A stretch of DNA of 64,000 nucleotides from Cephalotus follicularis (Eukaryota > Streptophyta > Magnoliopsida > Oxalidales > Cephalotaceae). Where the stretch lies: contig BDDD01002288.1 of assembly GCA_001972305.1 (NCBI GenBank), positions 58,901 to 122,900 on the forward strand, in the 5' to 3' direction. Under the pieces are notes generated by a model. It did not search any database, was not told where the DNA came from, and saw only the letters and a list, made by a program, of their open reading frames with translations. Shown here in pieces: positions 1,046 to 60,230 of this stretch. Position 1 is the first letter of the stretch. Each line of letters starts with the position of its first letter. Position numbers and translations under genes: made by a program.

Positions 1046-1397
1046 TCGACACTGCCAGGAAAGACGTCGACCCCTAGCCCAAAGGCGTCGATGTCTTTCT
1101 CATACGAGAGCAATATCCTTGATTCTGCAGCAAAGACATCGACGTCTTTCTAAAGACGTCGACGTCTTTGCATCGAGACGTCTCCCCAGGAAAGACGTCG
1201 ATGCAGAACATCGATGCGTATTCTCTCACTATTTTCATTGAAAAGCGTCGATGCCTTTCCCAGAAAGACGTCGACGTCTTTTGGCCAATTCTCTGCAATG
1301 AACAAGGAAAGACATCGACGTCTTTATAAAGACATCGACGTCTTTCCTCCATTTTCAAGAGGAGTCGACGTCTTTCATTAAAGACATCGACGCCTAA
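1046..1397. repeat. Cluster A of GTCGAC palindromes
   Basis: Roughly a dozen copies of a motif whose best form is the 18-bp perfect palindrome AAAGACGTCGACGTCTTT (1152-1169 and 1264-1281). Decayed copies include ACATCGACGTC and GCGTCGATGCC. Each full copy contains GACGTC twice around the GTCGAC core. The first pair shows the module order seen elsewhere: GTCGACCCCTA followed about 25 bp later by GTCGATGTCTTT. Confidence 0.85.
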
Positions 1398-1526
1398 TGT
1401 ACTGAAAAGAGTTTTGATTGTTTTAAAACTAGTTTTCTACTTCTTTTCACATAGCCACTTGACCGGAACCTCACTTGAGGTGTTCAAGTGTTTGAAAACA
1501 GTTTTATTGATTGTACTGACCGATTG

Positions 1527-1733
1527 ATTGCTTGGGTCATGAGTGTTGCTGCGAGTCTAAGTCGGTAAAATGGATGCACGTTCCCATCCCTCCATTAGGC
1601 ACCACCACTTATTGCTTTGCTTCGACGTTGTATTGGTACATCGTTCGATTGCTTGAGTCGTGAGTGCTGTTGCGAGCCTAAGTCGGTACGATGGACGCAC
1701 GTTCCCATTTCTCCATTAGACACCACCACTTAT
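1527..1733 (+). repeat. Tandem duplication, period about 121 bp, in LTR A
   Basis: The block from ATTGCTTGGGTCATGAG (1527) to CACCACTTATTG recurs from 1648 with a few substitutions, including the segment with CGCACGTTCCCAT. One copy of the same block is recognisable in LTR B near 5160-5200, so the duplication probably arose within the family. Confidence 0.75.
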
Positions 1734-1899
1734 TGACTTTACCCAATATTGTATTGACTGGATTGATTGATTGATTGTATTGTATGGATTCTATAGAGCG
1801 ACCTTATGATTCGTGTCGGCATGTTAGGGCGTTGACCTTGTCCACCTATTCCGTCGATCGTTTCATTTATTGTACTGTATTGACCCGCTGACGAGCGGT

Positions 1900-1992
1900 A
1901 TTGATTGTTGCTCCCTTTATGGTTGAGCTTACCGATTGTTGCTCCCTGACGGTCAAGCTTACCGATTGCTCCCTTTATGGTTGAGCTTACCG
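1900..1992 (+). repeat. Short tandem repeat, about 30-bp unit, in LTR A
   Basis: Three copies of a unit reading GCTCCCTTTATGGTTGAGC then TTACCGATTG, the middle copy with CTGACGGTCAAGC. A related set is present in LTR B near 5350-5410. Confidence 0.7.
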
Positions 1993-2769: not shown

Positions 2770-4170
2770 GTTACTAACAGAGGAATTTAACAGTGGAGTG
2801 ATCAGTTTCTTAGATTTTTCATTCTCGAGTGAAGAGTTTGTCTGGAATGGTAAGATAAAGTGTCCTTGCAACCGTTCCAAGTTAAGAACATTTAGAACTC
2901 GATTTAAAGTGCACTTACATTTGTTGAAGAAGGGTTTTACCCATGTTTACACGTTGTGGGATCAACATGGATAAATGATGGAACACCATCGAGGTAGACA
3001 ACTCGGGTCCGAGCAATCCTTTTAAAAATCTTGTAATTGATGCTAGGGGTTTCAAGTTTGATATTGGTGAAGATGACGAGTTGGCCGATGAACTTCTAAA
3101 TCCCAGTGCAAAGAAGTTCTATGATCTGCTTAATGATGCGGATGAACTGTTGTGGGGTGGCTATAAAAAACACACTGAGTTGTCTATGATGACGCATTTC
3201 ATGAATGTCAAGTCCAAGTATGGGATTCCTAACGAAGGGGCCGAGGAAATTCTTTAGATCTTTAAGAGCAGAATGCCCGAGGATGAGAAGTTGCTGGAGT
3301 CTTATTACAAGTTGAAACATATTATGAAGATATTGGGATTATGCTACGAAAAGATAGATGTATGTGCCAATTATTGTATGTTGTATTACAGAAATCACAA
3401 GTATGCTACAGAGTGTCCAACATGTAATCATCCTAGATTCAAACCTAACGGTCGGGGAAAGAGAAGGAAATAGGTACCCTACAAGGTTTTGCGTCATTTT
3501 TTAGTTGCACCAAGACTTTAGAGGTTGTTGCAGTAAGATAAAACAACTGCTAATATAAGGTGTCATAGTAAGAAGAGGAAGGACAACGATGGTGATGATG
3601 TTGGAATGGTATACCAGACTGACGGTGAAGCTTGGAAGCACTTTAATAGCAACGAATGAGTTTTGTCCGTTTGGGGTTAATAGTACTGTTTACTTTTGCT
3701 GGTTTGTTTTGTTTTCCCATACAATCTTCCACATTGGTTGTGTATGATGAAACCATTCATGCTATTGTCCTTGATTATACCTGGACCAAAAAGCCCATGA
3801 AAAGATATTGACGTGTTTCTGCGACCACTTGTAGACAAGTTGAAGATGTTGTGGGAAACTGGAGTTGAAACCTATAATGCATTGCACAAGAAGAACTTTT
3901 AGATAGGGCAGTTTTAATGTGGACGATTAGTGACTATCCTGACTATGGAATGTTGTCAGGCTGGAGTACTCATGGTCACCTAGCATGTCCCTATTGCATT
4001 GACGGGAATAAGGGTTTTAGATTGAAGCATAGTTAGAAATGTTCGTGGTTTAATTGTCACCATCAATTGTTGCCCACAGACCACCAATTTAGAAGAGACA
4101 ATACAAAATTCTTGAAGGGTTGGTGGGTGACCGAGGTGAGTACGGAGAGGTTATCAGGTGAAGAGGTAGA
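2770..4170 (+). pseudogene. CACTA (En/Spm) TNP2-type transposase remnant
   Basis: Translated pieces in order match a plant CACTA transposase. First comes the transposase-associated domain, with IKCPCNRSK and LLKKGFTHVYTLW (2780-2970). Next is the start of the TNP2 core, with KKFYDLLNDADE, YYKLKHIMKILGLCYEKI and CPTCNHPRFKPNG (3110-3470). Then QTDGEAWKHF (3620-3650), PHWLCMMKPF (about 3730) and the later block SDYPDYGMLSGWSTHGHLAC (3930-3990). Stops and frameshifts are frequent, for example TAG at 3256 and 3471. The cysteine pairs probably bind metal. LTRs abut both sides, so this is an island of an older DNA transposon split by retroelements. No terminal inverted repeat belonging to it is visible. 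Confidence 0.88.
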
Positions 4171-5667
4171 TGTAATGTCCTGAATTCCCCCAGCAGCTCC
4201 AGATTTGCCACACCAGCAGTGAATAGCAATTGCATGTCTCACCTCCGTTCTTCTTGAACAAGGCAGTGGCTAGTTCTTGAGTGCTTCCAACCGATTGATT
4301 GATTGGTAGCTCAACTGTTGAAACTCCAATTATAGGTAGGATTTCTCTACTTGAATTGTTTATAGCTTGATTGATTGCTTGAATTGAATGATTGAGTGAT
4401 TGTGTTGTATTGAATTGTGATACAAGGGTTTTAAATTGAATCCTTGATCTAACTGATCTAGGAAGATTGGAATTGTAAATTGAAGGTTGTAACAAGTTTT
4501 ACTAACCTTAAAGGAGTGATTTTAACCCTTGGTTTTCAAAGAATTGCTTTAAATTGGAATTTGACTTGAGATCGACTTCTTTTTCTGCTGAAAAATGGTT
4601 TTTCCCAGCACAGACGTCGATGCCTAACCCATGGGCGTCAACGCCTTGAGCTTCTGAACTGCTTTACTGAGGTTTTATCCGACATTAGCCTCAACGTGTA
4701 TCTTTGGCGTTGACGCGTACGACTTGGGATTTCTTTTTCCTAGGAAAGACGTCAACGTAAATCATATAAGCCATCTCAGTGTCGACGTTTTCTGTTTGCG
4801 CGTCAACGCCTTGATCCAAGGACGTCAACACCTAAACTCACTGGTTTAAAGAAATGTGATGTGCGTCGACGCCTTCTGCCAAAGGCGTTGACGCCTATCA
4901 GCCTATTATTGAAAGTAAATGTTAAGCGCCGACGCGTATCGCCATAGCGTTGATGCCTAATGCCCTGAATTGGAAAATTAATGTTTTAAAGCTAGTTTTC
5001 AACTTCTTTTCACATGGTCGCTTGACCGGAGCCTCACTTGAGGTATTCAAGCGTTTGAAAACAGTTTTCAATAGTTTTCAATGATTGTATTGATATATTG
5101 ATTGATTGCTTGCTTTAGCCATATGTGTCAGGAATCTAAGTTTGGAACGTTGGATGAACATTCCCATTTCTCCATTAGACATCACCACTTATTGGCATTG
5201 TACTGACATATTGATTGTATTGTATGAATCCTATAGAGCGACTTTATGACTCGCATCGGCATGTTAGGCTGTCGACTTTGTCCACCTATCTTGTTGATCG
5301 TTTCATTTATTGTATTGACCTGCTAACGAGCTGTACTGATTGATTGACGATTGATGCCCCCTGAGGGCCGTAGCTCCCCGACGGTTGAAACTCACCGATG
5401 GATGATGCTCATCGATATTGCATTGACCCAGCCATAGGCTGGAAGATCTATGAATCCCAGACCTGATCAGTCTGTGACAAGTAGATAGATCCCCCACTCT
5501 TTTGAAGGACTACCTTCCATGGGATTGATCATTGTCATTGATTGACATTGTATTGACCCGAAGTCGCATGCTCTATAGGATATGTTTGATTGATTGAGTG
5601 TTTTATACACCACCACCGAGTGTCTGCCATTGATTGATTGTTATAGATCCTATCCATATGCTCTGTT
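4171..5667 (+). repeat. Truncated LTR B, same family as LTR A
   Basis: Begins TGTAATGTCCTGAATTCCC and from about 4290 aligns with LTR A from about 715 onward, including the TTGATTGATTGA-rich stretch, the CATTCCC...CACCACTTATTG block and the GACCCAGCCATAGGCTGG block. It lacks about 300 bp near the start, where LTR A has its TATA-like and CT-rich segments. It also stops at a point matching LTR A position 2245, losing the last 525 bp and the primer site. Protease coding sequence follows without a gap, so one deletion removed the LTR end, gag and the protease start. Confidence 0.8.
4612..4965. repeat. Cluster B of GTCGAC-like palindromes
   Basis: This is at the position matching cluster A, but the copies read mostly GGCGTTGACGCC, GCGTCAACGCC or GCGTCGACGCC instead of GACGTCGACGTC. 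The first pair keeps the layout of cluster A: GTCGATGCCTAACCCA followed by GCGTCAACGCC. Many copies carry TTGAC or TCAAC in place of TCGAC, as expected from CpG decay. Confidence 0.8.
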
Positions 5668-5843
5668 ATGGGCCAGTGTCACTGGGTTCTTATTGATCCG
5701 GGTTCATCCCATTCATTCATTGCATCACATTTTGTCTACCATGTTGGTTTGAGACCCGAATGCCTTCCTTTCTTGATGGAAGTGTCTACACCTCTTGGTG
5801 AGTTAGCGATTACCGATCGAGCGTGTAGAGATTGTGTTATAGA
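5668..5843 (+). pseudogene. pol: Gypsy aspartic protease fragment
   Basis: Encodes VLIDPGSSHSFIASHF followed by LPFLMEVSTPLGE and CRDCVIDV, the retropepsin region of a gypsy polyprotein. The catalytic triad is DPG rather than the usual DSG or DTG. The 5' end is fused to LTR B at 5667/5668. The 3' end is cut at 5843, where the next element's LTR begins, and the continuation of this protease is not found after that element. Confidence 0.85.
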
Positions 5844-6778: not shown

Positions 6779-7029
6779 TACAGTACGTTAACATTACATT
6801 GACGCTACAGTACAATAACACTACACTACTATTTACTGTGGCCTGCCTTTAATACTCTATATTTCATTTATTAATATTCCTATTCTCTTATCCTCACTTT
6901 TACTGCACTTCTCCTCACTTTTCTGCACTTATCATTCTTTTATTATTATAATTCCTACACTTATCACTGCATCCATTTCACTGCACTTATCATGTTTTAT
7001 TATTAATATAATCCCTTTCTCCTATGCCC

Positions 7030-8280
7030 TTCCTCCTCGGCGCAAAGCATAATACACCTGGAACGCATGTTGCAACGCTTAGCATTCCCACGTCAAGCCC
7101 AGAATGCATGCATGGATGCGAGAGCGTGGCAGGCGAGAACGCACTGCTCAGGCGCGACATATGCATGGCATACTTCAGTGCACAACTTGGACGCATGCTT
7201 TCTCAGCTTCGGGTGCGTGGATAGTAGGACGCGTCCTCGGTACCTGCATGGCAAAGCACATGCTCGGCGCCCATGGCTTCTCGGACGCGTTCCTCAGCAC
7301 ATGCACGACCACCACTCGGCATGACGATAACACCTCGGCATAAGACGATGGCATCTCGGTCATGGCGATGGCACCTCGGCACGTGAACGTCATCTTGGCA
7401 GTATGGTAGAATGCTGCTCCGACATGGCCATCTCGGCGCCTGGCCAGCTTGGGTGTATGGTACCCTGGGCGTGTGGCTCCTCGGCATGCTCGGACGCTAT
7501 CAATGGAGAGCTCGAGTGTTTGGTAATGCATGCTGGGACATGCTCGGGCCACGTCCAGGTGGAAGAACTTGGCTCTGGCACACTTAGACGCATGCCATGG
7601 AGCTCGGGATGGAGAGCTTGGCACTCATCCCGAATGCTCGACACGTTTGGACGCCATTTCATCATGCTCGGATGCATGGCAGTGGATGCTCGGCATGTTG
7701 GTGCTACATGCTCAGACGTCATCAATGGAGTGCTCGGGCATGGCACCTCGGCACAACGCATCCTCAGCACATTGGCACCTCAACACTTCACCTCGGGCAT
7801 GGCAAGGGACAACGCATATGGCAGAGGATGACGAATGCATGTGGACAGTGACACACTACACTGGTGCGTCCACGACTGTGTGTTCTCGGATGCCTAACGG
7901 TGGCACCTTGGCACCATGAAAGCAGACACCTCGGGAGCCATGCTCGGTACCTGTGAATCCCCACACTATGGAGTTGCTCGAATGCATGCGCCATGCTCTG
8001 CATTGGCAGTGGAGCTCGGTGCCGCACCTCAGCACTAAGCCTCCTCGGCCACCTCAAGTGGAAGCTAAACACTTAGCCGATGGGAACTCAGCATCTTGGC
8101 GCCATGCCAGCTCGGCGTATGGAGGGTACGCTGGATGCACTGCTCGGCACTTGCTAGGACATGTGCCTCGTTGTGCTTAGACGCACAACACCAGTGTATG
8201 TAGAGGGACGTATGCCATGGTACACTTTATAGGCATCTCTTGAAAAGCATATCCTCGGCTGCATGTTTGCTCGGCACATG
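7030..8280. repeat. CTCGGC-rich degenerate array within the LTR
   Basis: Dozens of CTCGGC, CTCGGA and CTCGGG hexamers, often as TGCTCGG or CACCTCGGCA, are spread irregularly over about 1.2 kb. They are interspersed with GCATGC-type palindromes and ATGGCA. Local GC content is clearly above the flanks, and every hexamer carries a CpG. The second LTR copy keeps 7030-7620 (as 10318-10914) but lacks the part matching 7621-8420. I take it as noncoding sequence; its role is unknown. Confidence 0.7.
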
Positions 8281-9029
8281 CAGTGCGCACGCACATAATG
8301 AGAATGCCTTTTAAACGCACATGGATGTTAATAGCACATCCTTTACATACTTGGCTGGGCTATAGTACGCCAATTGTATGGTATGGGACACACTCCATTA
8401 TATGCACAGTATTCCTTAAATCTAAATCATTACTTGCAGAGGACCTTTTTGTAAATCTTAGTCATTCTACCTTTATAACATTCATCATAGTATTCCTAAC
8501 AATGAACAATGAAAATTAACAAATAAAGGTGCTGAGTAGGTAGTAGAACCTACCTGAAAATGGTGAGCTCTCTTTGACCACAGGTTCCTCCTTTGCCTTC
8601 CTTCCTTTGCTCAATGCAACAATTTCTCCTTGACACTTTCTCTCCCGAAATGCCAACAGTCCCTCCAACACTCACCACTTCTCTATTTATAGCTACCAGT
8701 GGAATTCTCTAGAATTCCCTGGAGCTATCTTACCATTCCTTCACTGGATTGGGCTGAGGACTGGTTAAAATCAGCCCAATTCTCCAATTCTCCCTTTATT
8801 CAATGTAGCCCAGAATTAACACTAATAGCCTAATAGTATAATAATATTTCAAGCCCAAATCTCCTTTCTTTACCTTGGACAAGATTGGCCCAAGGCTCCA
8901 TTCATTCATCAATCACATTTCGGTCCAAAATGTCAGTTATTCATTAACTCAATTTCCAATCCAATAACAGTAGCACATTTTGAGTCCAATTTCCACTCCT
9001 CAATTATTTATAAAATTCCGGGTATTACA

Positions 9030-10123
9030 ATCCTCCCCCCCCTTAGAAGAATCTCGTCCCGAGATTCTAGGGTAAAACAGGTGAGGATATATCACCCTTA
9101 GGTCATTTCTATGCTTTCGTTGTGCTCAAACACTTCCATGGCATTACCGTAACATTAGCGATATACTCGTATCATGTTAATTCATCCTTCTGGTGAGCGT
9201 CTAGAGACTAACTAAATACATATACTGTCCCTCACCAGCATATATAGAGAGTTAGCCACGCACACCGTTCAGACATACAATTTCTGTAACAGTACAGTCC
9301 TTGGCCATACGCTTGATAACAGTACATTCTTCAATCATTCGTCCCATATGCAGGGCCATTCTGCCCATAACCATACGATTCACAACAATTCTGTCACTTC
9401 CCATTACCATTTCATTAATACCATACATTAAATCCATTTACTGGTTCCAGAAAATGTGGGTCCGTTACCGATTCATTCCTAAAATTCCATTAATTTCGCC
9501 CACCGTTTTCATTATCACGCTTCCGTTTCACACCCCGATATCAAATCAGAGGCCAATAGGGAACTTCTCAGCCTTACTGATCTCCCATTGTACCTTCCAG
9601 TTTCCTTATACGGTAGTCTGCATAACTTCTCTGCCCTAGTTTCGCATCGGTAACAGCCTTTTTCTTAATTATTTAGCCCCTTTTTATAGTTTCTAGTGCC
9701 AACTTTGGTCCCAAAAGGCTCTATTTACCCACTTTGAACTAATACAATGGGGTTCCTTCAGACTGATTATCAGTCTGGGGATGAAAAACAGTCTCGAAAT
9801 ACTATCGGGTACCAAGAGTGGCTTGTAATTTTCTCAGAATCGGGATGTAACAACGAGAGTCCCTGTCAAACCTTACGTGGATCGGCACTCCGTGAAGCCT
9901 CATATTCTCAATAATGTACAAGGCTGCTATCCGTTCAAGAGGGTAGATGGTTTTGATTGCAGGGATAAGAGCACTTTTTTAGAGAAGCGATCATCAATTA
10001 TTCATGTAACTTTCGGTTAGTCGTTGTTCTTGGCAAGCCAAGACGCTTCCCATTGTACTACTCTGATTCACGGTATATACTTTACCTTCCATGGTAGGCA
10101 TCGATCTCGTAAGTTAAGGGATA
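9030..10123 (-). pseudogene. pol: Residual internal region of the minus gypsy: integrase remnant
   Basis: On the minus strand, frames from about 10030 down to 9745 give IENMRLHGVPIHV, FDRDSR, LRKLQATLGT and VFHPQTDNQSEG. These are the integrase catalytic core with its second Asp and the Glu region. Further down (9634-9590) RSYADYRIRKLE and MGDQ correspond to the integrase C-terminus before GPY/F. Several frameshifts and stops break it. gag, protease, reverse transcriptase and the primer site are missing, so this is a deletion derivative. 9030-9590 shows no further recognisable coding sequence apart from the purine tract. Confidence 0.75.
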
Positions 10124-11523
10124 CTGTGGCCTGCCTTTAATACTCTATATTTCATTTATTAATATTCCTATTCTCTTATCCTCACTTTTACTGCACTTCT
10201 CCTCACTTTTCTGCACTTATCATTCTTTTATTATTATAATTCCTACACTTATCACTGCATCCATTTCACTGCACTTATCATGTTTTATTATTAATATAAT
10301 CCCTTTCTCCTATGCCCTTCCTCCTCGGCGCAAAGCATAATACACCTGGAACGCATGTTGCAACGCTTAGCATTCGCACGTCAAGCCCAGAATGCATGCA
10401 TGGTTGCGGGAGCGTGGCAGGCGAGAACGCACTGCTCAGGCGCGACATATGCATGGCATACTTCAGTGCACAGCTTGGACGCATGCTTTCTCAGCTTCGG
10501 GTGCGTGGATAGTAGGACGCGTCCTTGGTACCTGCATGGCAAAGCACATTCTCGGCGCCCATGGCTTCTCGGACGCGTTCCTCAGCACATGCACGGCCAC
10601 CACTCGGCATGACGATAGCACCTCGGCATAAGACGATGGCACCTCGGTCATGGCGATGGCACCTCGGCACGTGAACGTCATCTTGGCAGTATGGTAGAAT
10701 GCTGCTCCGACATGGCCATCTCGGCGCCTGGCCAGCTTGGGTGTATGGTACCCTGGCGTGTGGCTCCTCGGCATGCTCGGACGCTATCAATGGAGAGCTC
10801 GAGTGTTTGGTAATGCATGCTGGGACATGCTCGGGCCACGTCCAGGTGGAAGAACTTGGCTCTGGCACACTTAGACGCATGCCATGGAGCTCAGGATGGA
10901 GAGCTTGGCACCCATGTAAATCATTACTTGCAGAGGACCTTTTTGTCAATCTTAGTCATTCTACCTTTATAACATTCATCATAGTATTCCTAACAATGAA
11001 CAATGAACATTAACAAATAAAGGTGCTGAGTAGGTAGTAGAACCTACCTGAAAATGGTGAGCTCTCTTTGACCACTGGTTCCTCCTTTGCCTTCCTTCCT
11101 TTGCTCACTGCTACAATTTCTCCTTGTCACTTTCTCTCCCGAAATGCCAACAGTCCCTCTAACACTCACCACTTCTCTATTTGTAGCTACCAGTGGAATT
11201 CTCTAGAATTCCCTGGAGCTATCTTACCATTCCCTCACTGGATTGGGCTGAGGACTGGTTAAAATCAGCCCAATTCTCCAATTCTCCCTTTATTCAATGT
11301 AGCCCAGAATTAACACTATTAGCCTAATAGTATAATAATATTTCAAGCCCAAATCTCCTTTCTTTCCCTTGGACTAGATTGGCCCAAGGCTCCATTCATT
11401 CATCTATCACATTTCGGTCCAAAATGTCAGTTATTCATTAACTCAATTTCCAATCCAATAACAGTAGCACATTTTGAGTCCAATTTCCACTCCTCAATTA
11501 TTTATAAAATTTCGGGTATTACA
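10124..11523 (-). repeat. Truncated 5' LTR of the minus gypsy
   Basis: 10124-10914 matches 6836-7620 nearly base for base. From about 10914 the match jumps to about 8420 and runs to the LTR end at 9029, so this copy has an internal deletion of about 800 bp. It also lacks the part matching 5844-6835, together with the primer site. It ends GGTATTACA at 11523. The five bases after it (TTTGA) do not match those before 5844 (ATAGA), so there is no target duplication. Confidence 0.85.
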
Positions 11524-12423
11524 TTTGAATCCTCTTCTCTCGGGATCCAAGTGCCTAACCTCTTGTGCTTCTTAAAGCCCAATCTACCTAGAGTCCCCTT
11601 GCCTAACTTATCTACACCTTGGAGTGAATGATGTAGTTCTCCACTAAAGTCTACTCCAAAATGCACGGGGATTTTTGTGATGATATTGCTATAGGGTAAG
11701 CGTGCATTCTCCCTATTGTGCATAGCGTGCATCTGGTTGATGATTAGAGTAGGTACATTTATCTTTTGACCCTTGATGATATGGAACATGGTGTAAGCCT
11801 CCATATGGCTCACTTCATCAAATCCACCGGCCTTTGGTAAAATGTGTGTGGCTACAGCTCGATGTAAAAATCTATGATGCAAACTAAGTTTTCTAGTGTA
11901 CATTCGTTGCATCACATCAACATTTTCTCCAAACAACATTCGCACACATTCTTCTTTGTTAAATGGATCGTTAATAATCCAGTTTCACTGATTCTATCCC
12001 CTAGCACCTTCACGTGGCATCTCTAAAATTGAAGTTAAGGTTGCATAAGTGAACTTAATCACCTTGTACTTAACACTAGTGCTCAAGCTTACACTAGAAC
12101 TAGAGAGGATATTAGCATAAAAATCCTTCATTAAATAGGGATAATAAGGCAAATTTATGCTAAACAAAGGAGATAAACCTAATTCCTCCAACCATCCTAC
12201 AATGGGAAACCATTCTCTATTGCAAAATGCAAAATTCAACGTCCAGAGTCATTCCTACGAGAAACTTGCGATTAAAGTAAGCTTCGGGATACCTTATCAC
12301 ATGAGGAATCTCTTCTGGCGTGGGAGGATCAATAGTTGCAGTTCCTTTCTTGTTCTTTTCTCCCAAGTGCTTTATTTTCTTTCCGGATGATTGCCCAACT
12401 TCAATGTTCTTTGATTTTGGCAT
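11524..12423 (-). pseudogene. ORF3 of the SIRE-like copia (putative plant transposon protein domain)
   Basis: Downstream of pol and in the same orientation lies a separate reading frame. It starts at ATG 12423 with MPKSKNIEVGQSSGKK and runs on with RYPEAYFNRKFLVGMTL, REWFPIVGWLEELGL, LHHRFLHRAVATHILPKAGG, SHMEAYTMFHIIKGQKINVP and LPYSNIITKI. The second half resembles the domain listed as 'putative plant transposon protein' in plant retroelements; I recall this from the family and did not search it. The order after pol recalls the extra, env-like ORF of some Sireviruses, but I see no clear signal peptide or membrane helix. There is one frameshift near 12230 and in-frame stops near 11985. The 3' end is cut at 11524 by the LTR junction. 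Confidence 0.65.
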
Positions 12424-47786: not shown

Positions 47787-47932
47787 TGTGATAACCGCAA
47801 TTGAAATTAATGTATATTGTACAACGATGATTAAAATATGCATTTTATCGAGATTATATGTTGGGTTATCATTTGAATAGAATGAAATTTGAAAATTCTT
47901 AAATGAAAAATAAGAAATAAGTTCTGGTTCTA

Positions 47933-48058: not shown

Positions 48059-48352
48059 TGGTGTCAGGAATATGATATGCGTCGATTAGAATAGAGCAGT
48101 GGTGCCAAAATGGTTCCTTGCAAGCTGAGTGTCCAGCGATGTGTCAACCATGCTAGGGAGACATTACCAGCTGTTGACAATGCCAAACTAAGGACCCTTG
48201 CATTTACTATTCCACCTGCAAGTCTGTAAACCTGCAATCACAGCAGAAACTATGAGAAAGAAACAAAGAGTGAAGGCATGCATAAGGGAAAGAGAAATGT
48301 CAAAATGAAAATTAGAAAACTCACTCATGAATTAAAGACACAAATTTGAGCC

Positions 48353-48360
48353 TTTATATC
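48353..48360 (+). promoter_or_regulatory. Likely TATA box of the gypsy G LTR
   Basis: TTTATATC precedes the GTGTTAGAAAACACTGAGG segment that is shared with LTR H, where a TTATAAAC lies in the matching place (55317-55324). The start site would lie about 30 bp further on. Conserved position in both LTR types is the main support. Confidence 0.6.
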
Positions 48361-48972
48361 AGCTGATACATGAGCTGATGAGTGTTAGAAAACACTGAGG
48401 AAAAGAGAGACAATCTGGATAATTGCTAGAGGATTGAAGGAGCTTGAAGTTCAAGTTGAACTTGGAACATCACCTGGAATTGGTAAGTAATCCGAGATTC
48501 CTTGATGTTGTTATGGTTATTAGTTTTGGAAACAGACTAAGATTAGATATACATATCCACTGTTAACATGATTATGAAAGAATAAGCTTGGAATTGGAGG
48601 TTGAAATTTGGATTTAGATAGGAGATGGATATGGAACTTAGAAAATTAACAGTAAGCTTTTGATTCAATTCTTGATGTTATCATGGTTAGATAACTAGTT
48701 AAACTTACTGGATTAGTATCTAAAACCTGTAAACATGCAGTTTTGGAAGATTGAGTTGGTTAGAAGAACATTGGACTTAAGGAGGGAAATCCATTCAAAT
48801 GATTTCGGGATTGCTTTTAATGTAGGGGTTTTGACATGTTTTTGAACATATAGCATGTATAATGTGTAGTAATGGTTGAGATTTGATTGCATGTTGATTT
48901 GGACTGAGATTGAATGAAATTATGCATGCTCTATTTTGTTGTTGCTCCTCGAAATTTGTAAGAACGCCAGAA

Positions 48973-49107
48973 GTGTCGACGCTTAGGTTCGGGCAGACGA
49001 CGCTTTGTTGTGTAAATATCGCATGTTAAGGCTTAGAATGTCGACGCTTTACGCTTTGATAGTGTGTCCAGTATCGACGCTTAATCTACAACCGTGGACG
49101 CTTTAGA
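48973..49107. repeat. Palindrome cluster G2
   Basis: Forms AGTGTCGACGCTTA, AATGTCGACGCTTTA, AGTATCGACGCTTA and CCGTGGACGCTTTA. Here most copies run into CTTA or CTTTA. The 3' LTR version is at 58942-59098 and has an extra copy near 59060. Confidence 0.85.
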
Positions 49108-50262
49108 TCAGTAATTGTGGGAGTGTTTAATGAATTGATTGAATTGGCTGTGGTTATGAATATCCTTGAACTGTTATACTGTTAAGCAATCTATATATTG
49201 CTGCCATTACTGTTTATTAAAGTAATCACTACTGTTTCATATAAATTTCAAGGATTATACCAACTTAATGCTTTAAACACAAAGAAATGATTTTTAACAA
49301 ACGGATTTCAGTAAGAAAATCTTATTGTTATACAAATTGCCATTTTCCTCTCATAAGAGGTATTGTTACCGTTTAGTTCTCCAAGAGAACCACTGATCAA
49401 ATTGTTATGTTTTCTAAAAATGAAAACTACCGCTATATTGCACATTATAGATATATGTGATACTGTCATTGAATTGATTGAATTGATTGTCTATGTTATT
49501 GCCGTTAGTCGAGTTATGGTAGATGTCACTGGCTAACGGAGGTGGACCTAGGTGTCAGGAGTTGGCTAGAGCATCTACCACACTTATCTGCAATATAGAT
49601 CCTGATTGTTACCTGCCCGCTAAATGCCTACAGAATTGACATGAACTATCACCTTCAGAGTGTAGGGTGATAATTAGGTGGTGCGCAGTTGGTGCTAGGA
49701 GTTACCGACATGCAACACCCAAACCACTGTATTGATTGATTTTACCCTTGTGTGGTATTCCTAATTGTATTGTCTATGGACACTTGGCATGATTACTCAT
49801 AAATATTTGAATACTTATTTATATATGTTATTCAAATTAACTGTCATACTTCTTTACATTTATATATTCTTTCTCATGCATTATGTCTGGTTAGCCAAGT
49901 GAGGACAACGGCTAACCCCCTACAATTTCAGATTTAGTGAAGGCATTTGGAGAATTGCTGCTGAAGCTTTATTGGAGAGCTTCTATCTGTTTAAGGTTGT
50001 TATTCACTATTTTGTATTGAAACGAACGATCATATCCCGTTGTTGTTGTTTTACTTTTCCTTTATGTAGAAGGATGATTGTTGGTACTGTATAAGCACGT
50101 AGTATGGGCTGCGTGTGGATAATTTTATCTAATCCGGCTTTAAATGCTTCCGCTAATTTGTTAATGAGTTTCACATTAATACTGAACGCTGGATTAATAT
50201 TATATTAACTGATATCACCACATATGTTCTCTTTATGGTATGGAAAACGGGGTGTGACAGCA

Positions 50263-50274
50263 TGGTATCAGAGC
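50263..50274 (+). other. Primer-binding site of gypsy G, second copy
   Basis: TGGTATCAGAGC, three bases after the LTR end. Confidence 0.95.
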
Positions 50275-50367
50275 TTGTTTTTTTAAATAAGCTATCGTAT
50301 GGATAAGTTTCTTGGTAATTAAGTGAATTGTTTCCTAATGATTCTATCATTCCATATAGGAAACAAA

Positions 50368-51500
50368 ATGGACCTACGAAGAGGTAGAAGGGGAATGCGT
50401 AGAGCTGACGAAGGAATCAATGCTCCGCCGGTACATGGGAATGATCTGACAGTGAATGCAGGTGTAAATGTTCCTCCAGTGCAAGACGAGAGGAGTAATT
50501 TTTACCGCATGGCTGACCTCTTCTAGCAGCAAATGAAAACTAATGCAACTAACATGGAGCAGATACGACAGATGTACGAGGTTAATCGGGCCTATCAACC
50601 TGCTCCTGAAGCTTGTCATACTGGTGGATTTGGCAGAGATTTGGAGCGGTTCATGAGACAGAATCCTCCGATATTCAATGATGTGTTGAATGCTACTGTG
50701 GCATAATGGTGGATAAGAGGCCTGGAGAAAATATTTGCTACCTTGGAGTGCACGGATGAGCAAAAACTCAACTTTGTTGTATACCGCTTGTGGGGCGAGG
50801 CTACCTATTGGTGGGAATCTCATAGACATGACAGGAGTTGGGACAGATTTTAGTCTGAGTTCCTTGCAACTTATGTACCCCAGATAGAGAGTAACCGGAG
50901 GGAGACCGAACTGATGGAGTTATGTCAAGGGGATATGACGGTAGCTCAGTACCAGGCTAGATTTGTGGAATTGGTAAGACATACCCCCTATCTGGTGGAG
51001 GGTGAATTGCGAATGATCCGAAGGTTTCTAAAAGGCCTTCGACCTGACATCATATCTAAATTGTTATTGCTACAACTAACTTCTTTTGTAGATATTGCTG
51101 AAAGGGCGATGATTCTGGAAGCCGATGCTAATGAAAGGAGAGCGGAGCAATCTCGTACTAATCAATCGAGGCCCGCACAATCACAAGGGCAGGGAAGTAA
51201 CAATCCTTTTAAATCGTCAAAGTCTGGTAACCGGGGTCAAGGAGGTTGTCGACACAGTAATTCACAATCAAGGACTCCTAGCCGAAGTAGTCAACAGAAT
51301 TCGGGTGGATGTACATTTTGTGGTCATCAAAACCATGATGAGACTGAGTGCTAGAAAAAGATGGGGAAGTGTTTGAGGTGTGGCTCACAATAACATATGC
51401 TGTGTTGTTGTTCAATGATGAAGGATCAAGCACGCGGCCAACAGGGAAGTGCTGGTGCCAGTGGTAGTGTTGCGGCTGCTCAACCGCGGAAGGATACTGG
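50368..51500 (+). pseudogene. gag: Gypsy G gag
   Basis: ATG at 50368 (MDLRRGRRGMRRADEG) is chosen by homology to gypsy 3. It contains GLEKIFATLECTDEQKLNFV, YRLWGEATYWWE, ELCQGDMTVAQYQARFVEL and RRFLKGLRPDIISKL, then a Ser/Gln/Asn-rich stretch and two knuckle-like pieces, CTFCGHQNHDETEC and CLRCGSQ. Stops at 50524 and 50851 fit CAG decay; the one at 50704 (TAA) does not fit simple decay. Stops at 51352 and 51391 lie in the knuckle region, the second of which has lost its spacing. Confidence 0.9.
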
Positions 51501-54500
51501 AAAAGGTATTGTGAAAGGTAGGGTCTATACCTTATCTAGAGATAATGTGCCATAATCTACTACTGTTGTGGGAGGTACCATTTTTATATCTTGCATACTA
51601 GCTCATGTATTGATTGACCCTGGTGCGACACATTCATTTATTGCATCTGAATTTGCTTGCAACTTGCATGGTATTACTTCTAGATTACCTTATGTATTGG
51701 AGGTGAGTACTTCAGCTGGTACTTGTCTTCTATCTGACACTATAATGAAAAATTGCGAGATCATGGTAGCTGGGATTCAGTTATCTGCTGACTTGATAGT
51801 GTTGCCTATCCGGGATTTCGATGTAATCTTGGGGATGGACTTGTTGTATGCTCATCATGCTTGTGTTGATTGCTATAACAAGATGATGACCTTTTACCTT
51901 CAAGATGGGACTGAGTGCAAGTTTATCGAAGATAAGAATGTTTCTGCTCTGATTATTTCGTATACTCGAGCACAAAAGTATCTCAAGCAAGGATGCGAAG
52001 GCTATTTGGCACATGTGATTGATCATACGAAAGGTACGCCTAGTATTGAACAAGTTCCTGTTGTATGTGATTAGCCTGATGTATTTTCATATGATCTCAC
52101 TTCATTGACACCGGAGAGAGATGTAGAGTTAAGCATTGAACTATTCCCTAGGACTGGTCCTATATCAAAAGCTCCGTACCGAATGGCTCCTGCTGAACTG
52201 AAGGAGTTGAAGACTCAATTGTAGGATTATCTTGATAAGGGCTTCATCAGACCGAGTGTGTCACCATGGGGAGCACTGGTCCTGTTTGTGAAAAAGAAGG
52301 ATGGTTCGATGCGGCTATGCATCGATTACAGGCTGCTAAATCAGGTAAGTGTGAAGAACAAGTATCCTCTACCATATTTTGAGGAGTTGTTCAACCAATT
52401 GCAAGGCTCTATCGTATTCTCCAAACTTGACTTGAGAACAGGTTATCATCAGTTGAGGATCCGAGAAGGTGATGTGGAGAAGACACCATTTTGAACCAGA
52501 TATGGGCATTACAAATTTCTGATACAGCCTTTTGGTTTGACAAATGCTCCTGCATCCTTTATGTGTTTGATTAACAGAGTGTTCCAGCCCTATCTTGAAC
52601 AGTTTGTCGTTATATTCTTAGACAACATCCTGATTTATTCAAGGAGCATTGAAGAAAACATGCAGCATTTAAGGATTGTATTGCAGACATTACGGAAGGA
52701 ACAGTTGTTTGCCAAATTCAGCAAGTGCGAGTTTTGGCTAGATCATGTGACTTTCCTAGGTCACATTGTGTCGAGTGAAGGATTGTCGGTAGACCATTCA
52801 AAAAGAGAGAGTATTGTTGATTGGCCCCAACCGAGGAGCGTTACTAAGGTTCGTAGCTTCTTGGGATTGGCTGGCTGCTACCGAAGGTTCATCAAAGGGT
52901 TTTCGAAGCTTGCTACACCATTGACACAGTTGACTTAGAAGAAGTCAAGTTTTGTGTGGGATGATTCTTGTGAGGCAAGTTTCCAAGAGTTGAAGAGTCG
53001 ATTGATTTCGGCTCCAGTGTTGGCATTACCGGAGGGTAATGAGGGTTTTACTGTCTATACTGATGCTTTTGGGAAGGGACTGGGATGCGTTCTTATGCAA
53101 CATGGTAGGGTGATTGCATACGCATCTAGGAAAACTGAAGACGTACGAAGAAAATTGTCCCGTACACGATCTTGAGTTGGCAGCCATAGTGTTCGCTTTG
53201 CAGAAATGGAGGTACTACCTCTATGGTGCTCAATTTGAAATCTTCACTGACCATAAGAGTTTAAAGTATCTGTTTTCCCAGAAGCAGCTCAACATGAGAC
53301 AAAGACGATGGGTGGAGTTCTTTAATGATTATAACTGCAACATTCAATACCACCCAGGAAAGGCGAATGTAGGGGCGGATGTGCTGAGTTGCAAGGCAAT
53401 GATTGTTGGGGCAATGGTTTCACAGTGGAAGCTATTGGAGGAAATTCAGAGATGGAATCCGTTCATGGTTTCCCGGGGAGTTATTGTTGCAAATCTTTGA
53501 GCACAATCGGAACTTCTGGACCGTATTCTAACTGCTCAATACAGTGACACTGAGTTATGGAGTATTCGTGAGAACCTAGACACTGATTCTGAATTCTCCA
53601 TTCACACTGATGGTACACTGAGGTTCCGAGGGAGGATATGTGTTCCGGATGACGAGAGCATCAGGGATGAGATACTGTAGCAAGCCCACAAGTCAAAATA
53701 CAGTGTTCACCCTGGTAGTTCGAAGATGTGGCATGACATGAAAAAGAACTACTGGTGGACTGGTATGAAAAGAGAGATTGCCGAATACGTAGCAAGATGT
53801 TTGACCTGTCAGAGAGTGAAGGCTGAACATTAAAAACCGGTGGGACTGCTACAATCATTACCAGTGGTTGAGTGGAAATGGGAACATGTGACCTTGGACT
53901 TCGTGTCGGGATTCCCGAGGTCACGGAATCAGCATGAAGCAGTATGGGTTGTAGTGGACAGACTCACTAAGTCTGCTCACTTTCTTCCAATGAACATGAA
54001 ATATTCTATCGAGAAGTTGGTTTGATTGTATATCAGGGAGATAGTGAGATTTCATGGAGTACGGGTCAGTATTGTTTGTGACCGTGATGCCAGATTCACT
54101 TCGAGGTTCTGGAAGAAGTTCCAAGCAACGATGGGAACAACATTGAACTTCAGCATTGTGTTTAACCCACAGACCGACGGACAGTCTGAGCGTACCATTC
54201 AAACTCTGGAAGACATGTTGCGGGCTTGTATGATTGATTTCACGAGGAGTTGGGAGGATCATCTAGCACTGATTGAATTCTCTTTCAACAACAACTTTCA
54301 CACCAAAATCAGAATGGCTCCCTCTGAAGCCTTGTGTGGGAGAAAGTGCAGATCGCCTATTTGCTGGGACGGGGTGGGCGAGAGACAAGTGCTGGGACCC
54401 GACTTGGTCCAAGAGACCACTGATAAAGTGGAAGTGATCAAGAAGAGGTTGCTAGCTACACAGAGTCGGTAGAAGAGTTACGCCGACATAAAGAGGAGGA

Positions 54501-54782
54501 AGTTAGAATTCGTGAAGGGAGATCGTGTTTTCTTGAATATCTCACCTTCGAAAGGGATACACCGTTTTGGCCTCAAGGGGAAGTTGGCTCCAAGGTATAT
54601 TGGACCTTATGAGATACTGGAAAGAGTGGGGGATGTGGCATATCAGATTGCACTATCGCCTAGTTTGTCGGGTGTGCATAACGTATTTCATGTTTCCATG
54701 TTACAAAAATACGTGCCCGACCCATCTCACATATTAAGCTATAACCCTGGATTCATCAGTCCTAGATTGTCTTATGAAGAAA
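51501..54782 (+). pseudogene. pol: Gypsy G protease, reverse transcriptase, RNase H, integrase
   Basis: Protease: HVLIDPGATHSFIASEF (DPG in place of DSG) and LPIRDFDVILGMDLL. Reverse transcriptase: [27 protein letters not shown] and [13 protein letters not shown], in which the second catalytic Asp is Asn. RNase [19 protein letters not shown]; an extra A at about 53133 shifts the frame. Integrase: [57 protein letters not shown] and RYIGPYEILERVGD. Stops occur at about 52222, 52492, 52936, 53498, 53678, 54023 and 54470; most fit CAG or CGA decay. The frame is broken at 54782 by solo LTR H and resumes at 57528. Confidence 0.92.
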
Positions 54783-54927
54783 TGTAATAACCGCAATTTC
54801 AATCCGTGTATATTGTGCTCTTGATGAATAAAATATGCACTTGCTTGAATTTTAATGTCTAATTGTTACATGAATTGTGATGGTGAATTCAATTGAGGTA
54901 ATAAACTTAAACAACCAAAGTCAGGCA

Positions 54928-55060
54928 AAACAGCCGACTGTTACAGGGTAACAGTCGACTGCCTAGTTCATGGGGGAACAGCCGACTGTCACAGGAGAAC
55001 ATTCAACTATTTGATGCCAGGAATGGACAGTCGACTGCCAAGTGAATACAATTGACTGGA
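54928..55060. repeat. Palindrome cluster H1 (CAGTCGACTG type)
   Basis: AACAGCCGACTGTT, AACAGTCGACTGCCTAG (core 54954-54959), AACAGCCGACTGTC, ACATTCAACTATT, GACAGTCGACTGCCAAG and ACAATTGACTGG. The second and third copies are an ordered pair at the place of the first pair of cluster G1, and the spacer starts with the same CCTA. Confidence 0.88.
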
Positions 55061-55315
55061 ATGGTATATAACAGGTGTCTCTGCATGCCTGTGTGATAGA
55101 ACCAAGGGGAGTGCATGATGGGCAGGTGTCATGCGAGATAGCAGCTACAAGAACATGCAAAAAAGGAATGCTTTGCATGTGCTCTGCAGACCTGTAACCT
55201 GCAAACAGAAATGGGAAGAGAGAAAGGTGAGAAAGAAGGGAACATGCGAGAGAGAGAGAATGAGGATGGGAATGAAGAATTATTGACTGAAAACGGGGAT
55301 TGAAGATACATCTCC

Positions 55316-55324
55316 CTTATAAAC
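55316..55324 (+). promoter_or_regulatory. Likely TATA box of LTR H
   Basis: CTTATAAAC about 530 bp into the LTR, followed by GAGTTAGAAAACACTGAGG and a splice-donor-like ATGGTAAGT at about 55453, the same order as in the gypsy G LTR. Confidence 0.6.
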
Positions 55325-56127
55325 AGAAGCTGCCTGAATGTCTTGAGAGTTAGAAAACACTGAGGATAGAGGGAGACTTGCTGGAGGATTGTAGGAGCTG
55401 CATTTGGATATTTTGGGTGTTCAAAGAGACTTGGAAGCTTTGGATTTTTCATGGTAAGTTCCCAAATCCAAGCTTACCACTGATGTAGTGATTTGTTAAT
55501 AATGTAACTAGGAGTATGTTATAATGCCTTCTGTTAACATGATTAAGGTTAGAAATTTCTAGAATTGAAATGGAATTGGTAAATGGTTCAAGAAGAGTTG
55601 AGATTATAAGCTCTAATTTGAATTATAGTTGTTGTTAGTTGTCCAGGTATATGTATACTGATCCCTTATGTATATATACATCTTCTATCAACACGTTAAG
55701 ATCACAGAATCTGCAATTGAAATATATTTGACAAAGAGTTCAAGGAGAAATTGTAAAAGGGGTAATTTGGAGGCTTAATCAATTAGTGATGAGCTACTGT
55801 TGGAGTAGTAATTGTAACCAAAATTAGTTGACTTACTGATTACATGACTGAGCCTTTGAGCATGCATTGTATAGACCATTTCTGCTGAGATTGGGAGGCT
55901 AAGTTGGTGAAAAAGCCTTGGAAACTCAAAGAGAGAAATCAATCCAAATTGATTTCAGGATAGCGTTTAAGGTAGGGGTAATGACATATTTTGGAAGATA
56001 TATTATTCATATCATGCATGCTTAATTTTCTGCTTGATTGCATGTGTTGTTGGGTTGATTGCATGTGTTGTTGGGTTAGTATTTGGACATTAAAATGCAT
56101 AACCTGCAACTTCCTGCCACTGGGCAA

Positions 56128-56243
56128 AGCAGTCGACTGTTCTTCATGACAGTCGACTACTTAAAGGAACCAGTCGGCTGTTAAGAGCAAACAGTCGACT
56201 ACTCAACCCAACAACCGACTATTCTTGGAAACAGCCGACTGTT
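56128..56243. repeat. Palindrome cluster H2 (CAGTCGACTG type)
   Basis: AGCAGTCGACTGTTC (56130-56139 is the perfect CAGTCGACTG), GACAGTCGACTACTT, CCAGTCGGCTGTT, AACAGTCGACTACTC, AACAACCGACTATT and AACAGCCGACTGTT. About 1.2 kb after H1. Confidence 0.88.
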
Positions 56244-57527
56244 CTGGGTCAGAATTTTGATACAGGCCCTGATTGGGCCTTCAAGTGAATGTAATTAACC
56301 TGGCCTCCATATGGGATGAGTGTGATAGTCCCTCATGGCCTTATATAATTACATTCCAGAAATTAAACAATGTGTATACTCCTTGTGAGAATATACAAGA
56401 GTAACTAGAGTATACAATGACCTTATTGAACCTTGGATTATTGCTGTGCTTACTGTTTACTGTATATGCTACTGTCATAATTAGTATATACTGTCTAGGG
56501 TGTTCATTAACACTACTGTCCCTTATTTTCAAATGATTGAACCAACTAGTGCTTTAAGCACAAATATGAATTCCTTACGGTTTTCAAAATGGAAATGTAT
56601 ATTGTCAAATGATTACTGATTTTCCTCCAATGAGAGGCACTATTATTGAACTGAATATCGTTTTCCTCCTACGAGATGTATGATTAATGAATTGTTAATT
56701 GTTCTAAAGAAAACAACTTTTATATTGCATACTATTGATATATGTAATATTCTACTGAATTGATTGAATTGATTTTCTATGCTTAATGTCGTTAGTCGAG
56801 TGATGGTAGAGGTCACTGACTACGGAGGTGATCCTATGTGCCAGGAGTTGTCTAGAGTATCCACCAAACCTATCTGCCGTGCAGATCTTATGTGCTAAAC
56901 TGCCCCCCAACGCTGGCAGTAAATGTTACCTTATCTATCATCTTCGGAGAGTAGGGTGATAGATAGGTGGTGCACAGTTTGTGATAGAAGTTAGCGACAT
57001 GAATTGATTGTACCCTTGTGCGGTATTCTTGCATTTTATTGGCTATGGCAACTTGGCATGATTGCTTATATATTGGAATGCTTATTAAATATATTTTCAA
57101 TATAAAATGTCATACATGTTGCATTCATACATTCCTTAACATGCATTATCTTCCTACTTAGCCAAGTGAGGACAACGGCTAACCCCTACAATTTCAGATT
57201 AAGCAAAGACGTACGGGAGGTGCTGTTGGAGCTTTTGGAGAGTTGCTATTTCTATCTTAAGGTTGTTATTTTATGATGATGTACTGTATTTGAATTGAAT
57301 TGTTCACACTCCGTGTTATTGTTGTACTATCCTTATGAAAAAGGTAATTTGATGGATTGTATACGCACGTAGTATGGGCTGCGTGCGGATGACCTTATTT
57401 TATTTTCCGGCTTATTGAATGCTTTCGCTTATATATGAATTGTTGAATGGAATGCTGGAATATTGTTTTATTTATGATATCACCATATATGCTTGTCTTT
57501 AATAGAACTGAAAGGCGGGGTGTGACA

Positions 57528-57686
57528 AGAAAGGCCGACGAGGATCGTAGATCGAATGGGGAAGTTGCTAAGGAATAAGACTATTCCTATAGTAAAAGTA
57601 CTGTGGCATTTTCACGGAGTAGAGGAAGCTACGTGGGAGCGTGAAGACGAAATGATGGAGACCTTCCCTCACTTGTTCGGAATGTA
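57528..57686 (+). pseudogene. pol: Gypsy G pol 3' end
   Basis: Resumes after solo LTR H with RIVDRMGKLLRNKTIPIVKV and ATWEREDEMMETFPHLFGM before TAA. The 'MGKLLRNKTIP' block is the chromodomain-like tail. A purine tract leads to the LTR at 57729. Confidence 0.9.
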
Positions 57687-57728
57687 AAAGCTAAATTCGG
57701 GGATGAATTTTCTTTAAGGAGGTGGGAA

Positions 57729-60230
57729 TGTGATAACCGCAATTTAAATTAATGTATATTGTACAACGATGAATAAAATATGCATTTTATCGAGATTATA
57801 TGTTGGGTTATCATTTGAATAGAATGAAATTTGAAAATTATTAAATGAAAAATAAGAAATAAGTTCTGGTTCTAACCGTCGATGCCTAACTCCATACCGC
57901 AGGCGCTTTGAGCATAGACACGTGTATAAGACATGTAGTTGAGCGCTGAGTTAGGACGTACAAAACGTCGATGCCTAAAAAAACCTGTCGACGTTTTGCA
58001 CGGTGTCAGGAATATGATACGCGTCTATTAGAACAGAGCAGTGGCGCCAAAATGGTTCCTTGTAAGCTGAGTGTCCAGCGACGTGTCAACCATGCAAGGG
58101 AGACATTACCAGCTGTTGACAATGCCAGACTAAGGAGCCTTGCATGTGCTATTCCACCTGCAAGTCTGCAAACTTGCAATCACAGCAGAAACTGTGAGAA
58201 AGAAACAAAGAGTGAAGGTATGCATGAGGGAGAGAGAAATGTCCAAATGAAAATTAGAAAACTGATGAATTAAAGACACGAATTTGAGCCTTTATATCAG
58301 CTGATACATGGGCTGATGAGTGTTAGAAAACACTGAGGAATAGAGAGACAATCTGGACAATTGCTCGACAATTGCTAGAGGATTGAAGGAGCTTGAAGTT
58401 CAAGTTGAACTTGGAACATCACCTGGAATTGGTAAGTAATCCGAGATTCCTTGATGTTGTTACGGTTATTAGTTATGGAAACAGACTAAGATTAGATATA
58501 CATATCCACTGTTAACATGATTATGAAAGAATAAGCCTGGAATTGGAGGTTGAAATTTGGATTTAGGTAGGAGATGGATATGGAACTTAGAAAATTAACA
58601 GTAAGCTTCTGATTCAATTCTCAATGTTATCATGGTTAGATAACTAGTTAAACTTACATGATTGGTATCTAAAACCTGTAAACATGCAATTGTGTAGATT
58701 AATTCTGCAATTTTGGAAGATTGGGTTGGTGTGAAGAACTTTGGACTTAAGGAGGGAAATCAATTCAATTGATTTTGCGATTGCTTTTAAGGTAGGGGTT
58801 TTCACATGTTTTTGAACATATAACTTGTATAATGTGTAGTGATGGTTGAGATTTGATTGCATGTTGATTTGGACTGAGATTGAATGAAATTATGCATGCT
58901 CTGCTTTGTTGTTGCTCCTGGAAATTTGTAAGAACTCCAGAAGCGCCGACGCTTAGGTTCGGACAGTCGACGCTTTGGTGTGTAAATATCGCATGTTAAG
59001 GCTTAGAATGTCAATGCTTTACGCTTTGATAGTGTGTCCAGTATCGACGCTTAATCTCCAATCGTCAACGCTTAAAGCGAAACTATCGACACTTTAGATC
59101 AGTAATTGTGCGAGTGTTTAATGAATTGATTGATTTGGTGGTGGTTGTGAATACCCTTGAACTGTTATACTGTTAAGCAATCTATATATTGTTGCCATTA
59201 CTATTTATTAAAGTAATCACTACTGTTTCATATAAATTTCAAGGATTATACCAACTTAATTCTTTAAACACAAAGAAATGATTTTTAACAAACGGATTTC
59301 AGTAAGAAAATCTTATTGTTATACAAATTGCCATTTTTCTCTCATAAGAGGTATTGTTACCATTTAGTTCTCCAGGAGAACCACTGATCGAATTGTAATG
59401 TTTTTTAAAAATGAAAACTACCGCTATATTGCACATTATAGATATATGTGATACTGTCATTGAATTGATTGTATATGTTATTGCCGTTAGTCGAGTGATG
59501 GCAGATGTCACTGGCTAACGGAGGTGGACCTAGGTGCCAGGAGTTGGCTAGAGCATCCACCACACTTATCTGCAATGCAGATCCTGATTGTTACCTGGCC
59601 GCTAAATGCCGGAAAAATTGACATGATCTATCACCTTCAGAGTGTAGGGTGATAATTAGGTGGTGCGCAGTTGGTGCTAGGAGTTACCGACATGCGACAC
59701 CCAAACCACTGTATTGATTGATTTTACCCTTGTGCGGTATTCCTGAATTGTATTGTCTGCATGATTACTCATAAATATTTGAATACTTATTTATATATGT
59801 TATTCAAATTAACTGTCATACTTGTTTACATTTATATATTCTTTCTCATGCATTATGTCTGGTTAGCCAAGTGAGGACAACGGCTAACCCCCTACAATTT
59901 CAGATTAAGTGAAGGCATTTGGAGAATTGCTGCTGAAGCTTTATTGGAGAGCTTCTATCTGTTTAAGGTTGTTATTCACTATTTTGTATTGAAACGAACG
60001 ATCATATCCCATTGTTGTGTTTTACTTTTCCTTTATGTAGAAGGATGATTGTTGGTACTGTATAAGAACGTAGTATGGGCTGCGTGCGGATAATTTAATG
60101 TGATTCGGCTTTAAATGCTTCTGCTAATTTGTTAATGAGTTTCACATTAATACTGAATGCTGGATTAATATTATATTAACTGATATCACCACATATGTTG
60201 TCTTTATGGATTGGAAAACGGGGTGTGACA
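57729..60230 (+). repeat. 3' LTR of gypsy G, second copy
   Basis: TGTGATAACCGC to GGGGTGTGACA, 2.5 kb, closely matching 47787-50259. Clusters at 57885-58001 and 58942-59098. TATA-like TTTATATC at about 58291. An open frame at 57971-58273 is not conserved in the other LTR and is not taken as a gene. Confidence 0.92.

Follow-up and report, generated by a model that had tools for sequence, protein, structure and literature searches.

Sireviruses carry repeated palindromic boxes in their long terminal repeats (LTRs), on the upstream side of the TATA box, and a further set ahead of the envelope-like open reading frame (ORF) (Bousios 2010, PMC2829016). In the available portion of that report these repeated-motif (RM) boxes are CpG-rich and are termed Sirevirus-specific, the Vitis motif CGGTCGACCG includes a GTCGAC core, a CGG-CCG core signature is present in 12 of the 13 published RM motifs (Tnd-1 being the exception), and box I of Tnt1 is named. 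Here we describe palindromic boxes centred on GTCGAC that are shared by gypsy and copia retrotransposons of Cephalotus follicularis and are set in doublets about 21 bp apart, starting from a 64-kb stretch of its genome (hereafter the window; positions 58901-122900 of contig C2288, BDDD01002288.1, part of a 1.577-Gb assembly with 9,746 contigs). Tnt1 box I is likewise said to be a short symmetric box repeated in U3 as a regulatory site, described for one family and tested for activity. Tnt1-type enhancer boxes and the boxes described here are thus both short symmetric LTR repeats; the former belong to one family each, whereas the latter occur in both superfamilies and have been read from sequence only.

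The Sirevirus-like copia element of the window, which lies on the minus strand (LTR ~37650-36556, gag 36462-35761, pol pieces 17005-14519), matches the published Sirevirus arrangement in several respects, as far as the accessible text of PMC2829016 allows the comparison. Its palindrome is repeated many times (no fewer than eight copies per element in Sireviruses), with eleven boxes in the 5' LTR (37150-37530) and six in the leader of ORF3, in agreement with the preliminary description of this DNA, which had placed the module in both. The LTR boxes occupy the upper half of the repeat, 122-495 bp into ~1,095 bp, and are followed by a CTATATA 96 bp past the last box. The leader boxes (12557-12760, minus strand) form three doublets with successive spacings of 21, 52, 21, 52 and 21 bp and stand before ORF3, just as the extra Sirevirus boxes stand ahead of the envelope-like ORF; an element in another stretch of the genome (L016) is built alike. 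There are also differences: the distance from the LTR start to the first box is shorter than the 200-400 bp published for Sireviruses, the consensus AAAGCGTCGACGCTTT is without the CGG-CCG signature, chromovirus-type gypsy LTRs have the boxes too, and the doublets have a fixed 21-bp spacing, which is not given in the part of PMC2829016 at hand.

A second comparison is offered by Del gypsy elements, whose LTRs contain variable CpG islands, with none in eudicot Del elements according to the accessible part of Cruz 2014 (PMC4029996). Like these islands, the box clusters are CpG-rich, poorly conserved stretches of LTR, and the two islands per LTR of some Del groups recall the two clusters per LTR in the gypsy elements G1, G2 and X; palindromes are unmentioned in that portion of the study, whereas here the CpG-rich stretches are palindromic box arrays in a eudicot. 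In maize, Sirevirus palindromes have been linked to small RNAs (PMC5311732, PMC10760457, each in part), and the available text of the latter describes gypsy elements as mostly lacking an obvious structure peak and a maize copia palindrome as being present in Helitrons too. Our literature search, which had little reach into subscription journals, returned no account of this module in gypsy elements and none in which a single type of box keeps a single spacing across the two superfamilies; queries for GTCGAC in LTRs were unhelpful. The module had been taken to be undescribed: this holds for the gypsy half, for which no description was found, and has to be withdrawn for the copia half, given the palindromic boxes in the accessible portion of PMC2829016. 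Palindromic LTR boxes are known; what stands out here is that copia and gypsy share them, with one rule of spacing.

Results

The GTCGAC hexamer is found 47 times in the window, compared with 6.4 expected under a first-order Markov model, and 41 of these cores fall inside ten intervals, each an LTR or a leader (18,069 bp of the 64 kb in total), that belong to chromovirus-type gypsy elements and the one Sirevirus-like copia, at the coordinates reported in the preliminary description. Three of the others lie in the LTRs of copA, another copia, and three in the remaining 41,111 bp. GTCGAC centres 7 of the 30 perfect palindromes of at least 12 bp in the window, and the box unit is a 16-bp near-palindrome, the consensus given above being that of a symmetric model. 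With this model nine intervals have a density of 3-10 boxes per kb and there is a single match elsewhere (0.02 per kb), compared with a rate of 0.15 per kb for simulated sequence; since the model was trained on the window clusters, this enrichment is partly circular. No box was found by the model in the copA LTRs or, in its main form, in the solo LTR Y. The observed/expected CpG ratio is 1.1-1.8 in 10 of the 12 clusters, 0.52 and 0.86 in the clusters of Y, and 0.68 over the whole window. Common one-base variants in the window are ATCGAC, GTCGAT, GTTGAC and GTCAAC, which match those that CpG decay of CGTCGACG would give.

A separate test is provided by a sample of twenty 10-kb stretches (200 kb), taken at regular steps through the contigs rather than drawn at random, in which related families are present. 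The sample contains 171 boxes of the main type, compared with 7 after reversal of the sequence and 5-10 across five Markov runs, as well as 21 CAGTCGACTG-type boxes. Among the 64 six-base palindromes, GTCGAC is the most over-represented (63 vs 16.8), and clusters of at least three boxes are present in 14 of the 20 stretches. The box module is real and very abundant in this genome, and a chance origin of the clusters is ruled out by the Markov and reversed-sequence controls. When viral contigs were searched, an exact 16-mer query returned three matching records and a protein scan returned no match.

Spacing was assessed over seven non-redundant intervals (5' LTRs and the leader; the 3' LTRs of X and G1 as well as Y were excluded). 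In good agreement with the earlier claim that paired cores lie 20-25 bp apart, 38 of the 61 neighbouring-box distances of up to 100 bp are 19-24 bp, with a peak at 20-23 bp and a mode of 21 bp, that is, two helical turns. Gypsy contributes 29 of 46 distances at 19-24 bp and copia 9 of 15 at 20-21 bp, so that the 21-bp mode is present in both alike despite their differing spacers. Genome-wide, the pattern GTCGACN{10,25}GTCGAC (pairs 16-31 bp apart) has 208,939 matches, against 2,871 for the backward pattern. The excess of pairs, whose absence would have spoken against the preliminary description, is large both over the backward pattern and over 24-26 bp: 166,339 pairs are spaced by 20-22 bp (control 1,742) and 1,643 by 24-26 bp (control 338). 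Among the first 100 genome pairs listed, all on one contig, 88 have a spacing of 19-23 bp, and in 52 of these it is exactly 21 bp. When 6-bp palindromes of the window and the sample are taken together, ATCGAT neighbours lie 19-23 bp apart in 6 of 10 cases and GTCGAC neighbours in 13 of 28; in our reading the former count with the latter, because ATCGAT is the centre of decayed A-type boxes. The longer gaps in the window lean towards multiples of 10.5 bp (n = 23, jitter p = 0.008 at 10.5).

The doublets had also been described as ordered, with a CCTA tail on the first box and a CTTT tail on the second. In the 22 window doublets AAAG is indeed commoner on outer than on inner arms (p = 0.01), a nominal effect that is gone in the separate 200-kb sample, where, in 47 doublets, AAAG is carried by 8 of the 94 outer arms and by as many of the 94 inner ones (p = 0.29). 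Tail order is at most a trait of the window families and does not hold as a rule.

The two arms of a box change together. In clustered sites of the window and the sample the bases flanking the core are complementary in 50 of 77 cases, compared with 31.2 after shuffling (p = 0.0003); the window by itself gives a weak effect (p = 0.09), because most of its boxes have one alphabet. Across the genome there are 73,186 sites of the GCGTCGACGC form (control 121) and 197,377 of the CAGTCGACTG form (control 939), while the mixed-arm form accounts for 6,335 + 6,380 = 12,715 sites. If the arms varied independently, some 240,000 mixed sites would be expected (twice the geometric mean of the two pure counts), so that mixed sites are ~19-fold too rare, in counts where same-family copies are not independent.

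There are three box alphabets, each of which is carried by gypsy and copia elements, although GACRTCGAYGTC and CAGTCGACTG are represented by few cases. Carriers were assigned from neighbouring protein matches, the primer-binding site (PBS) and LTR similarity, by eye and without trees. The GCGTCGACGC alphabet is found in gypsy G1, G2, X and L026 and in Sirevirus-like elements (that of the window, L016 in both LTR and ORF3 leader, and L029). The GACRTCGAYGTC alphabet is carried by gypsy A1, L017 (reverse transcriptase (RT) 80% identical to that of G1) and L025, by the Sirevirus-like L015 (gag 67% identical) and by a copia in L021; the CAGTCGACTG alphabet by gypsy Y and L030 and by a copia in L012, whose integrase is 35% identical to the Sirevirus-like one and which perhaps represents another lineage. 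The interval 54928-56243 had been listed as GTCGAC-type, which proved incorrect: the boxes of Y use a different alphabet, near ACAGTCGACTGT, and give no match to the main model. Clusters such as L014, L018, L024 and L031 could not be assigned; L031 contains a perfect tandem array with a 111-bp period (8159-9159) in which every copy is identical. In L027 (6021-6460), GCGTCGACGC and CAGTCGACTG boxes stand side by side, with the end of a chromovirus-type LTR lying downstream of them (7793). In L021, eight boxes (3051-3281) lie just inside the copia, past its PBS (3573, minus strand), with a local duplication in the same stretch; arrays may therefore also occupy a 5' leader.

In comparisons between families, the conservation of boxes exceeds that of the 25 bp flanking them (G1/G2 0.75 vs 0.63; A1/A2 0.64 vs 0.50; X/Y 0.53 vs 0.42), while within LTR pairs the boxes mutate faster (0.875 vs 0.955). 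Eight regions upstream of Sirevirus-like gag were fetched from 150 places listed, and six of them contain 7-9 boxes each, with 23 of 44 gaps at 20-21 bp. Across seven copia LTR copies (these six and that of the window) identity is 0.81 in box columns, 0.63 in cluster spacers and 0.75 outside (rotation p = 0.005), in a test where box columns were picked with the model, which favours conservation. With labels from the window copy alone, and with two box-less copies included, the values are 0.69 for boxes, 0.58 for flanks and 0.63 for the rest. As read from the sequences, the distance from the last box to a TATA-like box is 86 bp in X (CTATATAT at 49191), 98 bp in Y (TTATATAA at 56341), 120 bp in G2 and 96 bp in the Sirevirus-like LTR.

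The window consists of LTR retrotransposons nested in one another. In a protein search with a gag fragment, every readable organism name among the 120 of 660 matches listed was Cephalotus follicularis, and the best match was 88% identical. Sireviruses are marked by the PBS TATCAGAGC and by a C-rich signal close to the 3' end of the LTR; the Sirevirus-like copia, provisionally assigned to its lineage without a tree, has the PBS TGGTATCAGAGT, with one mismatch and preceded by a C run. Its ORF3 (11502-12423, minus strand, start ~12423) has frame breaks and a match to Pfam PF20167 at 11502-11984. Adjoining ORF3, the interval 6834-11523 holds a pair of direct duplications whose copies are 98.5% identical over 795 bp in one case and 97.5% over 610 bp in the other. 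The element is split by copA (17621-35818), which is itself split by the chromodomain gypsy G1 (25606-33549, target-site duplication (TSD) TCATG). G1 has a Pfam chromodomain match of 25.6 bits (cut-off 25.1); it was assigned without an RT tree, so that a place in the Del/Tekay clade of chromoviruses is provisional. On the plus strand, its 5' LTR (25606-27222) holds cluster 1 at 25790-25910 and cluster 2 at 26670-26880, with 3' LTR copies near 32080-32195 and 32955-33160.

The other gypsy pieces are G2, X with a second internal part on its left, the solo LTR Y, and the LTRs A1 and A2. A1 (~615-2260) has a plus-strand cluster at 1046-1397 with the alphabet AAAGACRTCGAYGTCTTT and two perfect 18-bp palindromes (1152 and 1264); the related A2 (~4171-5843) has one at 4612-4965, also plus-strand. 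The G2 LTR (~42803-41130, minus strand) contains cluster 1 at 42455-42630 and cluster 2 at 41480-41700. All clusters of X and Y are on the plus strand: 47930-48060 and 48970-49110 in the X 5' LTR (~47786-50259), 57870-58020 and 58930-59110 in the X 3' LTR (~57728-60230), and 54928-55060 and 56128-56250 in Y (54783-57527, TSD AGAAA), which sits inside X. Gypsy X (45639-60230) resembles a tandem product in which an internal part followed by an LTR occurs twice; Y is inserted where the second of these internal parts ends. That several gypsy LTRs carry boxes agrees with the preliminary description, which counted at least three gypsy groups; these groups are not independent, however, because G2, X, Y and A have internal sequence or LTR ends in common with G1 or among themselves. 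A further palindrome cluster at 61482-61702 includes perfect palindromes of 30 bp (61507) and 24 bp (61674) with TTTTGAAA words, unlike the GTCGAC boxes.

Discussion

We lean, by a modest measure, towards the explanation that the boxes are sites for dimers of a host factor, assembled into a paired enhancer array that is used across copia and gypsy. Each 16-bp palindrome would hold one dimer of a host DNA-binding protein; doublets ~21 bp apart would put two dimers on one face of the helix, where they could touch and form a cooperative enhancer array, ending ~85-120 bp ahead of a TATA-like box in four LTR types. The two-turn spacing, the symmetry of the sites, the joint change of their arms and the conservation of boxes within mutable spacers point to side-by-side protein dimers, which would activate transcription. 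We propose that the chromovirus-type gypsy, the Sirevirus-like copia and probably other copia elements would share this grammar because they need the same factor family. The half-sites may resemble those of nitrate factors (RWP-RK); the spacing does not fit.

Several observations weigh against this explanation. Six of the 20 sample stretches (L013, L019, L020, L022, L023 and L028) are without a cluster, including L019, which holds a chromovirus (RT 71%), and L022, L023 and L028, which have other copia or gypsy matches; two of the eight regions upstream of Sirevirus-like gag are also without boxes. No clear TATA-like box follows the clusters of G1, A1 and A2. Of the 100 genome pairs listed, 12 are at 27-30 bp, and the steps in Y are 21, 27, 21, 28 and 21 bp in one cluster and 20, 21, 21, 20 and 20 bp in the other. 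The whole-genome counts take in many same-family copies, hence do not represent independent events. Finally, phasing past the doublet is weak (p = 0.55 in the sample when the period is left free, and a marginal p = 0.05 after pooling), and the case therefore rests on the doublet spacing.

How the same boxes came to be in both superfamilies bears on the earlier claim of spread by convergence or exchange. This fits best with a fixed spacing, conserved box islands and the loss of copia-gypsy similarity on masking, whereas the ordered tails that were part of it have not been reproduced; a bound site acquired by convergence or old exchange would be the best reading of these sequences, and convergence would be the main route. 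Exchange in the stricter sense, where arrays passed between gypsy and copia by recombination or template switching and the non-box sequence then diverged, would through repeated transfer also yield three alphabets in both superfamilies, and the unmasked ORF3 leader aligns with cluster 1 of G1 over 121 bp at 66% (E = 4.6e-07). Once the boxes are masked, however, no significant copia-gypsy similarity is left (best E = 0.066), and we regard this route as unlikely. The masked comparison also leads us to reject one recent shared insertion: beyond the boxes, no single inserted repeat common to the families was found in it.

A role in RNA or single-strand structure, with the palindromes retained as transcript hairpins that are useful to the element or feed small-RNA silencing, appears improbable to us. 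Such a role would accord with the small RNAs drawn to maize Sirevirus palindromes in the available portions of PMC5311732 and PMC10760457, and 11 of the 12 clusters fold better than dinucleotide shuffles (z <= -2.5 on at least one strand), the remaining one being cluster 2 of X (z -1.7 and +1.1). Good folding is, however, expected of any palindrome array, and it explains neither the optimum at 20-22 bp nor the gap at 24-26 bp. Hairpins between doublet partners are not supported: an initial complementarity (p = 0.006) came from mixed families, and shuffling within families leaves no co-variation in excess of what family composition gives (p = 0.47), an argument against RNA pairing between the partners. 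Local array growth, in which the boxes would be degenerate units of short tandem repeats multiplied through slippage or unequal exchange with no protein bound, is very improbable, since the 21-bp step recurs across families with differing spacers and boxes are conserved above spacers, even though the L015 array has local duplications (offsets ~72 and 113 bp) and the A1 boxes are near-identical to one another.

Returning to paired dimer sites, a more far-reaching version would have one factor family govern a large share of the LTR retrotransposons in this plant by way of palindromes paired at a distance of 21 bp, with copia and gypsy converging on them repeatedly and shifts in specificity being met by symmetric box changes in both superfamilies; we offer it tentatively, as it may well prove too strong. 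The presence of the boxes in gypsy LTRs indicates that palindromic LTR boxes are not peculiar to Sireviruses, and the fixed spacing, together with the alphabets, makes a precise probe for seeking the protein. If one factor family does drive these unrelated retrotransposons, they would clearly exemplify how copia and gypsy converge on, or exchange, regulatory sequence, and the factor would be a single handle on the activation of much of a 1.6-Gb genome.

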